IMG/VR virus record: IMGVR_UViG_3300017735_000081
Coordinates: 1 to 26,950 of that record
Length of the DNA: 26,950 nt
Strand: one strand, 5' to 3'
DNA from: a virus
In this document: positions 9,246-25,345 of the stretch, one piece after another
How the letters are laid out: the number at the start of each line of letters is the position of its first letter
How positions within the stretch are numbered: the first letter of the stretch is position 1
Position numbers and translations under genes: made by a program
The notes under the pieces: model-generated
The model's database searches: none
Told to the model about the DNA's origin: nothing
Seen by the model: only the letters and a program-made list of their open reading frames with translations

Positions 9246-9428
9246 TTACATGCGATCTATGTACAACTTATCCTTCTTTTTTACAACTTTATACTCATAT
9301 TGGTTATAACCAGAGTCTATAAGATCTTGATTAAGATTGCTTACCCACTTTTCATATTCATCAACACGATCACCAGGTTCAAGAACCCCCAACAATGAGG
9401 GGTTCTTTTCATCATTTATAATTTTCAT
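9246..9428 (-). CDS. Small hypothetical protein
   Basis: 60 residues starting M-K-I-I-N-D-E-K-N-P and ending K-D-K-L-Y-I-D-R-M. The ATG overlaps the TGA of the DUF932 gene (ATGA), so the two are probably translated together. No known domain is visible; the middle is acidic with a G-D-R-V-D-E-Y-E segment. A perfect 9-bp inverted repeat lies inside the coding region (9381-9407). Real gene status is supported by the coupling and by the terminator placed seven bases after its stop. Confidence 0.65.
   Translation of the reverse strand: MKIINDEKNPSLLGVLEPGDRVDEYEKWVSNLNQDLIDSGYNQYEYKVVKKKDKLYIDRM
9381..9407. repeat. Perfect 9-bp inverted repeat inside a small ORF
   Basis: Arms AAGAACCCC (9381-9389) and GGGGTTCTT (9399-9407) with a 9-base loop, within the start of the 60-residue ORF. 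On the minus-strand mRNA it would form a stable hairpin about 20 bases after the start codon. No T-run follows in that direction; a short T-run follows on the plus strand. Confidence 0.6.
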
Positions 9429-10381
9429 GCTGCTGTTGCAAACTCCACCGCCTTGTTAGCGGCGTTAATCTTACGCCCTTGATTGTAACCAAACCACTGG
9501 TTATTCAACCGACTCTCTGAGCTACGACCTTGAATGTGGTCAGTCATATATGTAACAGAGTTAAATGCCTGCCACCAAGTTCCTTGACCGAACTCTGCAC
9601 CAGGCTGAGTCTCAAGATTAGAAGCTGCTAGTTGAGCTGTGCGTGAGAGTTCCTCAAACGCCGACACAGTACGCTGCTCACGGTGTGGGAATACTTCATT
9701 GTAATACTGCATTAAAGATTCAGTATTAAAGCGACGAGTTGACAAGAATTCCGCCATCTCTTTGTACTGAGCAAACTTTTCAGAAGCAAGGCCCATTTGC
9801 TCTTTAACCATATCAGCATCGAATGTAGAGCGATGGCCAACTTTTACAAAGTTTTTAGACTTTGAGTTTAGAGAAAATGTGAGCGTGTTATTGCATACAA
9901 CACGAATGGGAGTAAAGCGAATATCAACAGCTTTACCATATTGGTGAGGATTGCTAAACAGTAAATAGGAGTCAACTTGGTCTTCGCCGAGAATAGTGAA
10001 AGACTCTTTGACTTTTGCGAGAGCGAATACATTTTTTCCATCCTTTAAAGATCCTGCTACATTCATTTCCATATCACCGGCCATTACGAAATCTGAGAAG
10101 AATTCGAAAGCTTGTGTATTTTGTACTGGATTCCAGTCGTCACCGACCATATCTAAAACTGAACCGTCAGAAGAACGAACCAAAGCTTTTTTACCAGGAA
10201 TTTTTACACCTGATACTGTTTGTACTTCTTCTTTTTCAACTGTCCAATCAAGGCCAGCTTTTACCATAATCTGTTCGGGCGTCATATCGTTCCGAACTTC
10301 AACACCAAGACCGTGCCAAGGTACATCGCCAACATATGCGAGTTGAGCTTGACCGTTAATCATTTCTACTTCATGTGCCAT
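9425..10381 (-). CDS. DUF932-family phage protein
   Basis: 318 residues. The N-terminus M-A-H-E-V-E and the early P-W-H-G-L-G-V-E-V motif (about residues 20-28), followed by M-V-G-D-D-W-N-P-V-Q-N and V-V-C-N-N-T-L, are typical of the DUF932 (phage/plasmid-like, TIGR03299) family. These proteins are common in phages and plasmids; their function is not established. The gene is driven by one copy of the repeated early-type promoter (10410-10438), with a GGAG site just before the start. It is the first of a two-gene unit ended by the terminator at 9213-9238. Length fits the family. Confidence 0.9.
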   Translation of the reverse strand: MAHEVEMINGQAQLAYVGDVPWHGLGVEVRNDMTPEQIMVKAGLDWTVEKEEVQTVSGVKIPGKKALVRSSDGSVLDMVGDDWNPVQNTQAFEFFSDFVMAGDMEMNVAGSLKDGKNVFALAKVKESFTILGEDQVDSYLLFSNPHQYGKAVDIRFTPIRVVCNNTLTFSLNSKSKNFVKVGHRSTFDADMVKEQMGLASEKFAQYKEMAEFLSTRRFNTESLMQYYNEVFPHREQRTVSAFEELSRTAQLAASNLETQPGAEFGQGTWWQAFNSVTYMTDHIQGRSSESRLNNQWFGYNQGRKINAANKAVEFATAA

Positions 10382-15062: not shown

Positions 15063-15455
15063 TTAGAAGCTAAAAGTAGCACCTACTTTTGAGCTTACTG
15101 CGTCTTCTGCATCGATATCCCAAGTTGTTTCACCGAACAACTCAACTCCACCGAATACTTCGTAAGTAGCACCAAAGTTAATCTTTGGGTTATCAAGCAT
15201 TTTGTCTACTTTGAACTCTTCATTGTTATATACTGGCAGATCCATGTCAGCTGTAAGACCTACACCAAACATTGTGTATCCAACTTCTGGTGTTACTTTT
15301 ACGCCAAAATCTTCTACAGCGTTACCAGCCGCGTCATTGATGGTATATGCTGCTTCTGATTCTACGCCCCAAGTAATACCTGTTGCACCAATCTCGTTTG
15401 CTGAGATAGACGTTGCTGTTAATAGTGCTGCTGCTGTGATTGCTGCAAATTTCAT
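15063..15455 (-). CDS. Small outer-membrane beta-barrel-like protein
   Basis: 130 residues. M-K-F-A-A-I-T-A-A-A-L-L-T-A-T-S-I-S-A is a Sec signal with cleavage before N-E-I-G. The mature part (about 110 residues) alternates short amphipathic strands, for example I-T-W-G-V-E-S-E-A-A-Y-T and V-G-Y-T-M-F-G-V-G-L-T-A-D-M, and ends in ...K-V-G-A-T-F-S-F. A terminal Phe with alternating hydrophobic residues is the outer-membrane sorting signal read by the BAM complex. About six to eight strands fit. An AGGAAA site precedes the ATG. The gene follows the tmRNA by about 30 bases and ends with its own strong terminator. Surface function (entry exclusion, porin) is open. Confidence 0.8.
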   Translation of the reverse strand: MKFAAITAAALLTATSISANEIGATGITWGVESEAAYTINDAAGNAVEDFGVKVTPEVGYTMFGVGLTADMDLPVYNNEEFKVDKMLDNPKINFGATYEVFGGVELFGETTWDIDAEDAVSSKVGATFSF

Positions 15456-15486: not shown

Positions 15487-15705
15487 AAGCTGCCACGTTT
15501 TCTGTTGCTAGGTAAGTGGCCAACCCCCTGTGTTATGCAGCTAGTGCGTAACCAGATGGTGCAAAATTATCGTTTGCATTTGTGTTTTGTAAACTAGAAT
15601 ACATGTCGATCCTATTTCAGCCCCATCAGAAATACACATTATGTACTTGTGGTGGAGCTGTCCGGTACTGCCCCGGAGTCCATACATCCGTTATTAACGC
15701 TTACA
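15487..15705 (-). ncRNA. ssrA: Circularly permuted two-piece tmRNA (ssrA), phage-encoded
   Basis: tmRNA frees stalled ribosomes by acting as tRNA and mRNA with SmpB. Here the gene is permuted: the acceptor piece (about 15705-15650, ending CAGCTCCACCA) comes first, then a 25-base spacer (15649-15625), then the coding piece from GGGGCTG (15624). Supporting pairs: acceptor stem 15624-15618 with 15660-15654 (7 bp, one G-U); helix P2 15605-15599 with 15687-15681 (7 bp, two G-U); a T-arm stem of 5 bp at 15677-15673/15665-15661 with a non-canonical 7-base loop. The tag frame 15577-15533 encodes ANDNFAPSGYALAA and stops with TAA. After it, GUUG/CAAC and GCCAC/GUGGC interlock as an H-type pseudoknot (15524-15492). 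Ends of both pieces are estimates. CCA is encoded. No smpB is visible, so host SmpB is presumably used. Confidence 0.92.
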
Positions 15706-15711
15706 GGTTAT

Positions 15712-15740
15712 ATATTAACATATGTTTTAAATGTTGTACA
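15712..15740 (-). promoter_or_regulatory. Promoter of the tmRNA gene
   Basis: Minus strand TGTACA (15740-15735), 17-base spacer, TAATAT (15717-15712). The start would be near 15705, right where the acceptor piece should begin. The -35 hexamer and the spacer length equal those of the three repeated phage promoters, though the spacer sequence differs. Confidence 0.7.
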
Positions 15741-15809
15741 TGCTCCATCACAATCTTTCTTGAGTGTGATATAATTAGCACATAGCCATCTGCATCATAT
15801 GCAATCCAT

Positions 15810-16088
15810 TTATACTTTTTCTTCAGTATCGTGAATGTAAAGTTGGATGAGGGCATAGTGGAGAACTTTCATTAAATCCTTACGGGCGTCATCACGACTA
15901 CCCTTCTTCCCATAACGATTTGAATACTTATCAACATTTCCCATACAAAAACCAGTACCGTGACCGCGCTCAATAATTACTTCTGTTGATTGGAATTTAT
16001 TAGTAGCATAATGTCCATCATATGTAGCATCGATATAAGCTTGAAACTCTTCAATCAGCGCGCCTTCATTAAATTTATAATCAATCAT
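15810..16088 (-). CDS. DUF3310-like small protein
   Basis: 92 residues. After an acidic N-terminus, the segment H-Y-A-T-N-K-F-Q-S-T-E-V-I-I-E-R-G-H-G-T-G-F-C-M-G-N-V-D-K-Y-S-N-R-Y-G-K-K-G, then D-D-A-R-K-D-L-M-K-V-L-H-Y-A-L, matches the pattern I know from DUF3310 (HY...EvIe...GFclGNiiKYi-R-GkKg...DL-KA). Family members occur in many phages beside nucleotide-metabolism genes; function is not established. The start follows the cell wall hydrolase gene by zero bases. Length is normal for the family. Confidence 0.8.
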   Translation of the reverse strand: MIDYKFNEGALIEEFQAYIDATYDGHYATNKFQSTEVIIERGHGTGFCMGNVDKYSNRYGKKGSRDDARKDLMKVLHYALIQLYIHDTEEKV

Positions 16089-20857: not shown

Positions 20858-21294
20858 TCTACAAACTCATATGTTATACCTGCTTCGTTGAACAGTATTT
20901 CTGAGTGGCCCCAAGATTTTTTCCAATTTTCTTTTATTTCTTGTTTCGGCATAACAACACGCTTAATACCCACTTGAATCACGCCTTTTGCACACTCAGA
21001 GCACACAGGCAAACCAGTGACATATATTGTGGATTGATCTAAAGACACGCCGTTATATGTGGCGTTATAGATCAAGTTTTGTTCGGCATGCACGATATAT
21101 TGGTACTTAAGTTCTCTATCATTTAAACGCGCCCCACCATCAAATATGCCTCGAGGGAATCCATTATATCCTTGCGCTAAAACCTGACCTTTAGATCCTA
21201 CAGCTACCGCGCCAATTTGCGACGATGGATCTTTAGACCAGGTTCCTACTGTTCTAGCAAGTTCTAAGTAACGAAGATCCCATTTATTACTCAT
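20854..21294 (-). CDS. cd: dCMP deaminase
   Basis: 146 residues. The H69-A-E71 motif and P-V-C98-S-E-C101 supply the zinc ligands and proton shuttle of the cytidine/deoxycytidylate deaminase fold; the G-Y-N-G-F-P-R-G motif near 42-49 is typical of dCMP deaminases. It converts dCMP to dUMP for dTTP synthesis, as T4 cd does. Length is a little shorter than T4's enzyme. The 4-base overlap with the TS-fold gene shows they are made together, so the phage balances dCMP between hydroxymethylation and deamination. Start chosen at M-S-N-K-W-D-L-R. Confidence 0.93.
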   Translation of the reverse strand: MSNKWDLRYLELARTVGTWSKDPSSQIGAVAVGSKGQVLAQGYNGFPRGIFDGGARLNDRELKYQYIVHAEQNLIYNATYNGVSLDQSTIYVTGLPVCSECAKGVIQVGIKRVVMPKQEIKENWKKSWGHSEILFNEAGITYEFVE

Positions 21295-21995
21295 CGCACT
21301 AACTCAAAGTGACGCTCATATACATGAAGATTTTGAACCTGCCAGATCATCATACCAGGTTCAATGGCTGTACCATTTCCATTTGAAGTACGTTCAAAGC
21401 GTCTGAAATTATAATCGTCACACAATTTTTGTACTACGTGCATTTGCCATGCGTTATCATTCTTATATCCAAAGACCACATCATTAGATCTCATTTGCAC
21501 AACAGAATGTAGTAGGCCGTCACGAACATAATACGTGACTGCATTAGTACAAATAAAATCATTCTTGCCATTGTCTTTATAGTCTACCCAGATATTAGGG
21601 CGGTTGTAGACCATAGTGGCACGTCTACCGTCAGGATGTTCTAAAAGCTCTGTCAGTACATTATCATATTGATTGTGATATGAGTCACTAAAAATAAGTT
21701 TGCCATAGTTGGAATTAATTTCACCATGATGGTTGGCAGCATACTTCCATGCATCAGGCGGACCTCGATGCTCACCATAAATGTCATTAATATTAGTTGA
21801 CATATTATGATACCATAATAATTCTTGGTTAATATATCCTTGATTTGGCTGTCCGAAGATTGAAGGTTCGGTGGCAACAAACGACGCGCCGATTAATTCA
21901 ATAGTTTTAGCGCCAGTTTTATCTATAGTGAATGCTTCATCATTGAGCTCACCTATAAAAAACCGGCGGATATCTTCTACGCTATCCATTCTCAT
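21291..21995 (-). CDS. Thymidylate-synthase-fold nucleotide hydroxymethylase
   Basis: 234 residues. TS landmarks are present: E-L-L-W-Y (58-62), G-E-x-x-x-x-Y-G-K (91-99), D-G-R-R (122-125), Cys149 in F-I-C-T-N as the nucleophile, R169-S-N-D172-V-V-F-G, and H224-V-Y226. T4 gp42 and phage hmdU enzymes share this fold and make 5-hydroxymethyl dCMP or dUMP with methylene-THF. At the base-selecting position (Asn177 of E. coli TS) the simplest ungapped alignment gives Asp180 (K-N-D-N), as in dCMP hydroxymethylase. The protein lacks the usual C-terminal extension of TS. A separate ThyX in the same window makes ordinary thymidylate, so this enzyme is likely dedicated to a modified base. Confidence 0.85.
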   Translation of the reverse strand: MRMDSVEDIRRFFIGELNDEAFTIDKTGAKTIELIGASFVATEPSIFGQPNQGYINQELLWYHNMSTNINDIYGEHRGPPDAWKYAANHHGEINSNYGKLIFSDSYHNQYDNVLTELLEHPDGRRATMVYNRPNIWVDYKDNGKNDFICTNAVTYYVRDGLLHSVVQMRSNDVVFGYKNDNAWQMHVVQKLCDDYNFRRFERTSNGNGTAIEPGMMIWQVQNLHVYERHFELVR

Positions 21996-24658: not shown

Positions 24659-25345
24659 TTATTCTCCTATAAAGTTTTGAATACTTGGATAAATTTGTCC
24701 TATAGCTTCAGCGACAGACAAGGCTAAGTCCATATGTTCTTTTTGTGTACCATTAGCAGATCTTAGTTCAATATAATGAATCCATGACCTAATAGTACCA
24801 TTTACATACACCCTTGAAACAGTATTTCCTTCGGGCAATACGGCCCTTGCCTGCTCTTTTGCGATACCATTATCTATAGCCCAACTATAGGCCATTTTAG
24901 CAGTTTCAATAACCGCCATCTGCTTATTCGCCCATTCATCTTCAAGAGCCATATCATTATTTTCGACGCTGTTCTGGCGATTCTTAGGATCTTGTAACCT
25001 TGCATCTCTTAAGACAAAATCTGTATCTAAGTCTCTGATATCAGCATATCGCTGCGAGAATTCTTGAAACGAAAAAGATCTATGCCTTAGTAATTGTCTA
25101 GCAATGTCACGTGTTGTTTCAATCTCAATGCACGCAGACGCCATTTCAAATGGGCTCCAATGCCGATGCTTAATTAAATAATCTAAAAGCTTAGCAGTTG
25201 TCTTAGTATTCGCTTGATTTGATGGATTAGAAACTCTTGCACAATATGCAACTAAATCTTGAATATTTTCAAGTCCCATAATCCCAGGTTCACCTGAGTG
25301 AACGTGCTTTACGGGTTGGCTGTATGATATAAGACGGCTTTTCAT
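24659..25345 (-). CDS. thyX: Flavin-dependent thymidylate synthase ThyX
   Basis: 228 residues. The ThyX signature RHR-x7-S is present: R87-H-R89, then S97, followed by Q-R-Y (98-100). A Y-C-A-R-V-S-N-P motif at about 34-41, H-R-H-W-S-P-F-E at 60-67 and the C-terminal T-I-R-S-W-I-H-Y-I-E-L-R also fit. ThyX methylates dUMP using FAD, NADPH and methylene-THF. Length matches bacterial and phage ThyX. Its ATG overlaps the stop of the 39-residue gene by one base. With the dCMP deaminase downstream, it completes a phage dTMP route independent of the TS-fold protein at 21.3-22.0 kb. Confidence 0.96.
   Translation of the reverse strand: MKSRLISYSQPVKHVHSGEPGIMGLENIQDLVAYCARVSNPSNQANTKTTAKLLDYLIKHRHWSPFEMASACIEIETTRDIARQLLRHRSFSFQEFSQRYADIRDLDTDFVLRDARLQDPKNRQNSVENNDMALEDEWANKQMAVIETAKMAYSWAIDNGIAKEQARAVLPEGNTVSRVYVNGTIRSWIHYIELRSANGTQKEHMDLALSVAEAIGQIYPSIQNFIGE

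Follow-up and report, generated by a model that had tools for sequence, protein, structure and literature searches.

A permuted two-piece tmRNA gene in a T4-like phage, and the small protein genes that its relatives carry in the intervening segment

Introduction

The intervening segment (IVS) of a permuted tmRNA gene is normally taken as a discarded spacer. Genes of this kind are already on record in phages: a two-piece ssrA was described in the T4-like phage Melnitz, and among 133 phage tmRNA structures 53 were counted as putative two-piece tmRNAs, of which 50 are marine or aquatic (PMC9004378). A survey of 97,179 tmRNAs, whose public database has 11,946 permuted ones, reports a single tRNA gene and a single repeat inside IVSs and leaves protein genes unmentioned, and the group I intron form of tmRNA carries homing endonuclease genes (PMC11915505). 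For the form of phage DS6A that consists of the tRNA-like domain only, a role as a decoy has been suggested (PMC4131195, PMC11915505).

We analysed a stretch of 26,950 bases from an IMG/VR virus record (the window), in which an earlier note had claimed a permuted two-piece tmRNA on the minus strand. The claim is borne out, and by itself this tmRNA is a further member of an already known class. The new part is that the excised stretch of the tmRNA gene holds small protein genes in close relatives. We consider it very probable that the gene is a phage-borne, alphaproteobacterial-type permuted tmRNA gene and that, in this phage group, the loop of the IVS is a slot for small protein genes.

Results

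An alphaproteobacterial-type permuted tmRNA in the window

Rfam covariance models identify positions 15705-15491 of the minus strand as a circularly permuted, alphaproteobacterial-type two-piece tmRNA (Table 1), with a signal well beyond chance expectation. RF04321 scores 88.3 bits (15702-15533, minus strand, E 5.5e-16, gathering score 47) and RF01849 83.9 bits (15757-15491, minus strand, E 1.3e-21, gathering score 50). The earlier note had proposed two software checks; the covariance models agree with it, both scoring above gathering, and ARAGORN made no call at the locus. This program did call several other phage permuted tmRNAs, and it may have missed the one in the window because only 47 nt separate GGGG from the resume codon in this lineage, as against 82 in Melnitz. 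A BLAST search of phages with the tmRNA region gave no match at 1e-5; relaxing the limit to an E value of 10 brought up several isolates.

Table 1. Features of the tmRNA locus and its neighbours, in window coordinates
Feature	Position	Strand	Basis or remark
DUF3310-domain gene, upstream	15810..16088	-	Pfam PF11753, 33.2 bits; synteny
51-codon ORF (ORF51)	15701..15856	-	conserved in L135, L138, L141, L142, L153, L178
Acceptor piece, about 56 nt	15650..15705	-	RF04321, RF01849, covariation; 5' end estimated
P2 strands of acceptor piece	15705-15699 and 15689-15682	-	
T-arm of acceptor piece	15677-15661	-	
Acceptor strand CAGCTCC	15660-15654	-	
Encoded ACCA	15653-15650	-	
End of acceptor piece, CAGCTCCACCA	15660-15650	-	
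IVS, 25 nt	15625..15649	-	hairpin AAGTACA-TAATG-TGTATTT, no ORF
Coding piece, about 134 nt	15491..15624	-	Rfam, covariation; 3' end estimated
Acceptor strand GGGGCTG of coding piece	15624-15618	-	
P2 strands of coding piece	15604-15597 and 15594-15588	-	
Tag reading frame GCA..TAA, ANDNFAPSGYALAA, 14 codons	15533..15577	-	codons 15577-15536, TAA 15535-15533
H-type pseudoknot	15492..15526	-	both stems 96-100% paired in relatives
Pseudoknot stem 1, GGGT with ACCT	15526-15523 with 15513-15510	-	two pairs changed on both sides
Pseudoknot stem 2, GCCAC with GTGGC	15520-15516 with 15496-15492	-	
130-aa protein gene	15063..15455	-	after tmRNA

The acceptor stem (7 bp) closes only in the permuted order and includes G3·U70, the classic alanine identity pair. 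The T-stem is TCCGG/CCGGA with the loop GGCAGTA, and P2 is made of two helices, of 8 and 7 bp. The tag has an LAA-type end and is followed by a stop codon; in the product it would be preceded by the alanine borne by the tmRNA. The spacer of 25 bases, the 14-residue tag frame, the pseudoknot downstream of it, the end of the acceptor piece and the start of the coding piece had all been proposed beforehand and are confirmed, and the predicted sizes of the two pieces agree with the 55 and 135 nt or so that had been expected. Compared with shuffled sequences, the window RNA has a modestly more stable fold (z -2.0), in which the acceptor stem, the T-stem, and the IVS hairpin can be seen.

The ssrA of the Methylophilales phage Melnitz (PMC9004378; MZ577097) is likewise a permuted, alphaproteobacterial-type gene of a T4-like marine phage with a small gene directly upstream. 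Its tag is ANDNYVPVDYALAA, and it differs from the gene of the window in having another gene neighbourhood, a longer coding piece, and an IVS of 142 nt with an ORF. The alphaproteobacterial permuted tmRNA (RF01849, RF04321; PMC11915505) shares with the window the gene order, G3-U70, the T-loop type, P2, the tag, and the 3' pseudoknot, whereas the window's coding piece is compact and its relatives have protein genes in the IVS. The earlier note had thought such a gene unusual in a T4-like phage. Permuted tmRNAs are not rare in these phages and the type is already known: besides Melnitz, two-piece tmRNAs are found in the isolates DSS3_MAL1, RcSimone-Hastad, and Cp1R7A-A1, and at least 119 IMG/VR contigs match one exact 20-mer. 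Plasmids were also searched and yielded no related tmRNA.

Conservation and covariation of the structure

We drew 43 pairs by hand on the window tmRNA and counted them on 12 relatives, in which the pairings of the acceptor stem, P2, and T-arm are kept in the permuted order, as had been claimed. Pairing is found in 96.9% of the cells, a value that leans upwards because the structure was drawn on the window; the compensatory changes, present in 6 of the 7 helices and with 12 pairs changed on both sides, are independent of that. When the partners are slid by 1-3 columns, pairing falls to 35-48%. The covariation score is 0.261; shuffles give 0.130, and slid partners no more than 0.064.

The larger collection of 219 distinct phage genes described below has G3-U70 in all 219 and the T-stem pairs in 215-219, the scan that gathered them having not demanded the T-stem base by base. 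The T-loop of the window had been regarded as non-canonical; it is ordinary for the type, since 95 of the 219 genes have GGCAGTA (98 have GGCGGTA). Tested at a fixed offset over 216 genes, the inner P2 helix gave a weak signal (4.0 of 8 paired, against 3.4 when swapped), since other lineages have P2 at different positions; the helix holds in the window's own lineage.

Could the RNA be a remnant without activity, or does it sequester host SmpB as a decoy, in the manner suggested for the DS6A form? The compact coding piece and the deletions before the tag in the Rfam alignment mean that full activity of the window tmRNA is not certain, and a molecule similar to the tRNA-like-domain-only form of DS6A inhibits tmRNA (PMC4131195, PMC11915505). 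We nevertheless find this explanation improbable, as close relatives keep the LAA-ending tag frame, the stop, and the pseudoknot, unlike the DS6A form.

Protein genes nested in the IVS of relatives

Because IVS length varied strangely among close relatives, we collected 219 distinct phage permuted tmRNA genes and examined every IVS. The IVS of the window, a hairpin of 25 nt, holds no protein-coding ORF under selection, and lengths elsewhere go up to 499 nt (410 nt in Sinorhizobium phage Phosso). Fifty IVSs measure 130 nt or more. In 41 of them a single ATG ORF takes up at least 70% of the length; on the reverse complement this is so for 4 of the 50, and shuffles give p<=0.05 in 36 of the 50. 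A Shine-Dalgarno-like 4-mer is present in 35 of the 41 nested ORFs. Nine ORF families, of two to four members each, have dN/dS values of 0.05-0.21, counted only on codons inside the IVS; pooled over these families, the differences at the three codon positions number 195, 96, and 424. An exact motif makes for biased sampling, and related contigs do not count as independent, so we also give counts of clusters: the 54 nested ORFs make up 27 sequence clusters.

Homologs outside any IVS exist for 27 of the 52 nested ORFs, often as the direct neighbour of the tmRNA. One family is nested in L035, L094, L288, and L319, and is a free-standing annotated gene just upstream of ssrA in Melnitz. All 16 nested loci tested pass the Rfam gathering scores as permuted tmRNA, and ORFs in common with T4-like reference loci occur on 34 of the 36 contigs tested. 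In L171 the nested frame stays open to the end of the IVS, and this contig stops soon after. Another contig, L064, has a permuted phage tmRNA (4049-4487) whose T-loop is the standard TTCGAAA, whose acceptor stem has one mismatch, and whose IVS contains an ORF; we considered a trans-split tmRNA there and rejected it, the acceptor piece lying 188 nt upstream with the ORF in between.

The ORFs in the long IVSs might be chance open frames: the sequence is AT-rich, conserved stops near the end of the IVS give frames a stopping place, IVSs of less than 100 nt among the 219 genes show no excess of ORFs, and most nested ORFs tested have no PHROG match. This reading is strongly disfavoured, and in our view very unlikely, given the excess over the reverse complement and the shuffles, the low dN/dS, and the existence of homologs as ordinary genes outside IVSs.

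In the part of the literature covered, nothing turned up on protein genes within the IVS of a tmRNA; our own comparison was among phage genes. The group I intron form resembles the phage slot in having a protein gene within a removed segment of the tmRNA gene. In the intron form, what is removed is a self-splicing intron situated in the T-loop, and the genes encode homing endonucleases, whereas the phage slot is the IVS of a permuted gene, with tRNA-type processing without ligation, and its proteins are varied and small.

Different cargo at the same locus

Relatives at the window's locus, with flanks up to 97-99% identical, have differing nested genes or none. L141 shares 97% identity with the window in the upstream gene, 94% across ORF51 and the acceptor piece together, and 98.6% across the coding piece, and has an IVS of 229 nt with a 66-codon gene. 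The IVS of L142 (164 nt) contains a different gene, and those of L135, L138, and L153 have 25 nt, as in the window. The 66-codon gene is shared by L140, L141, L208, and L209, contigs from several metagenomes, which speaks against an assembly artefact. The nested-gene variant is therefore a property of the window's relatives at orthologous loci, such as those of L141 and L142, and the slot of the window is empty. Codon-level selection and presence or absence at the same locus together show that the IVS is a slot for small protein genes.

The ends of the IVS pair with each other (-12.9 kcal/mol for own ends, against -6.3 for swapped ones, n=138), and in the fold of L141 the ORF is enclosed by a 12-bp helix that extends the acceptor stem (z -3.5), so that the slot is the loop of an acceptor-stem/IVS hairpin. 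The frame runs past the RNase P site in 8 of the 27 nested clusters and terminates within the mature coding piece, and processing by RNase P would thus leave the IVS as a nonstop message; the positions of the nested stops may merely follow from stops already fixed in the flanking sequence.

A separate observation concerns L144-L150, whose downstream gene is 83-87% identical to the window's and whose tmRNA is of a different type, starting with GGGGGCG or GGGAGCG and with 82 nt to the tag. This has the appearance of an exchange of tmRNA alleles.

Neighbouring genes and phage context

ORF51 terminates within the 5' strand of the acceptor piece, an overlap suggestive of a common transcript. On the other side, all 34 IMG/VR relatives of the 130-aa gene have a permuted tmRNA directly upstream; judged by eye, the start of the window's protein, MKFAAITAAALLTATS, resembles a signal peptide. 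The window encodes a gp41-type helicase that shares 61-69% identity with the helicases of C48C1, cyanophages, and Melnitz (Kyanoviridae-type phages), and the description of the phage as T4-like therefore stands. No SmpB is found in the 26,950-base fragment, and we therefore assume that of the host. A candidate T4-type late promoter (TATAAAT near 15812) was rejected, as it is inside a reading frame and not kept in L141 or L153. The fragment also has two differing thymidylate synthase-type genes (21291-21995 and 24659-25345), with matches to PF00303 (49.8 bits) and to ThyX/Thy1 PF02511 (140.6 bits), and, in a T4-like phage, a DUF932 protein (9425-10381; PF06067, 144.4 bits).

As an alternative, the contig could be of bacterial origin or span a prophage junction, with the tmRNA being a host ssrA, a gene common as an integration site (PMC11915505). 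This is hardly credible beside the T4-like neighbours and the many syntenic viral contigs; moreover, the one place where genome_contigs (84,980 species) has the exact tag is a T4-like phage contig. This contig, L247 (NHBR02000136.1, from the MAG Muricauda sp. TMED12), has T4-like clamp and clamp-loader type genes along with a permuted tmRNA and looks like a phage contig misbinned into a bacterial MAG. We dropped the inference of a host from the tag, this contig being the only match.

Discussion

The tmRNA account rests on sequence, structure, covariation, and synteny. By analogy with established tmRNA biology, standard trans-translation with host factors is the best account of the RNA. The tmRNA would be transcribed within an operon, and its precursor would fold with the acceptor stem continuing into the helix of the IVS ends. 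RNase P would cut before GGGG, 3' processing would leave the encoded CCA, and the IVS would be lost, the two pieces being held together by acceptor-stem and P2 pairing. Charged by alanyl-tRNA synthetase through G3-U70, the tmRNA would be delivered to stalled ribosomes by host SmpB and EF-Tu; stalled products bearing the tag (A)ANDNFAPSGYALAA would then be directed to host ClpXP-type proteases. Ribosome turnover could thereby be kept up during infection when damaged or nonstop mRNAs accumulate. Translation of the nested genes would take place either before processing, on the whole transcript, or on the IVS after its excision.

For marine T4-like phages, we think it reasonably likely that the excised segment is a recurrent slot, with varied small protein genes in the loop of the acceptor-stem/IVS helix, and that one transcript yields both a two-piece tmRNA and a small mRNA with base-paired ends. 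In 8 of the 27 clusters this would release a nonstop IVS along with the tmRNA; that such an IVS is a substrate of its own tmRNA is speculation.

In this phage group, then, the IVS holds conserved protein genes that vary between phages at an otherwise constant locus. A single transcript would be both a ribosome-rescue RNA and an mRNA, a natural case for a conflict between RNase P processing and translation, and small phage proteins encoded inside an RNA gene may escape annotation.
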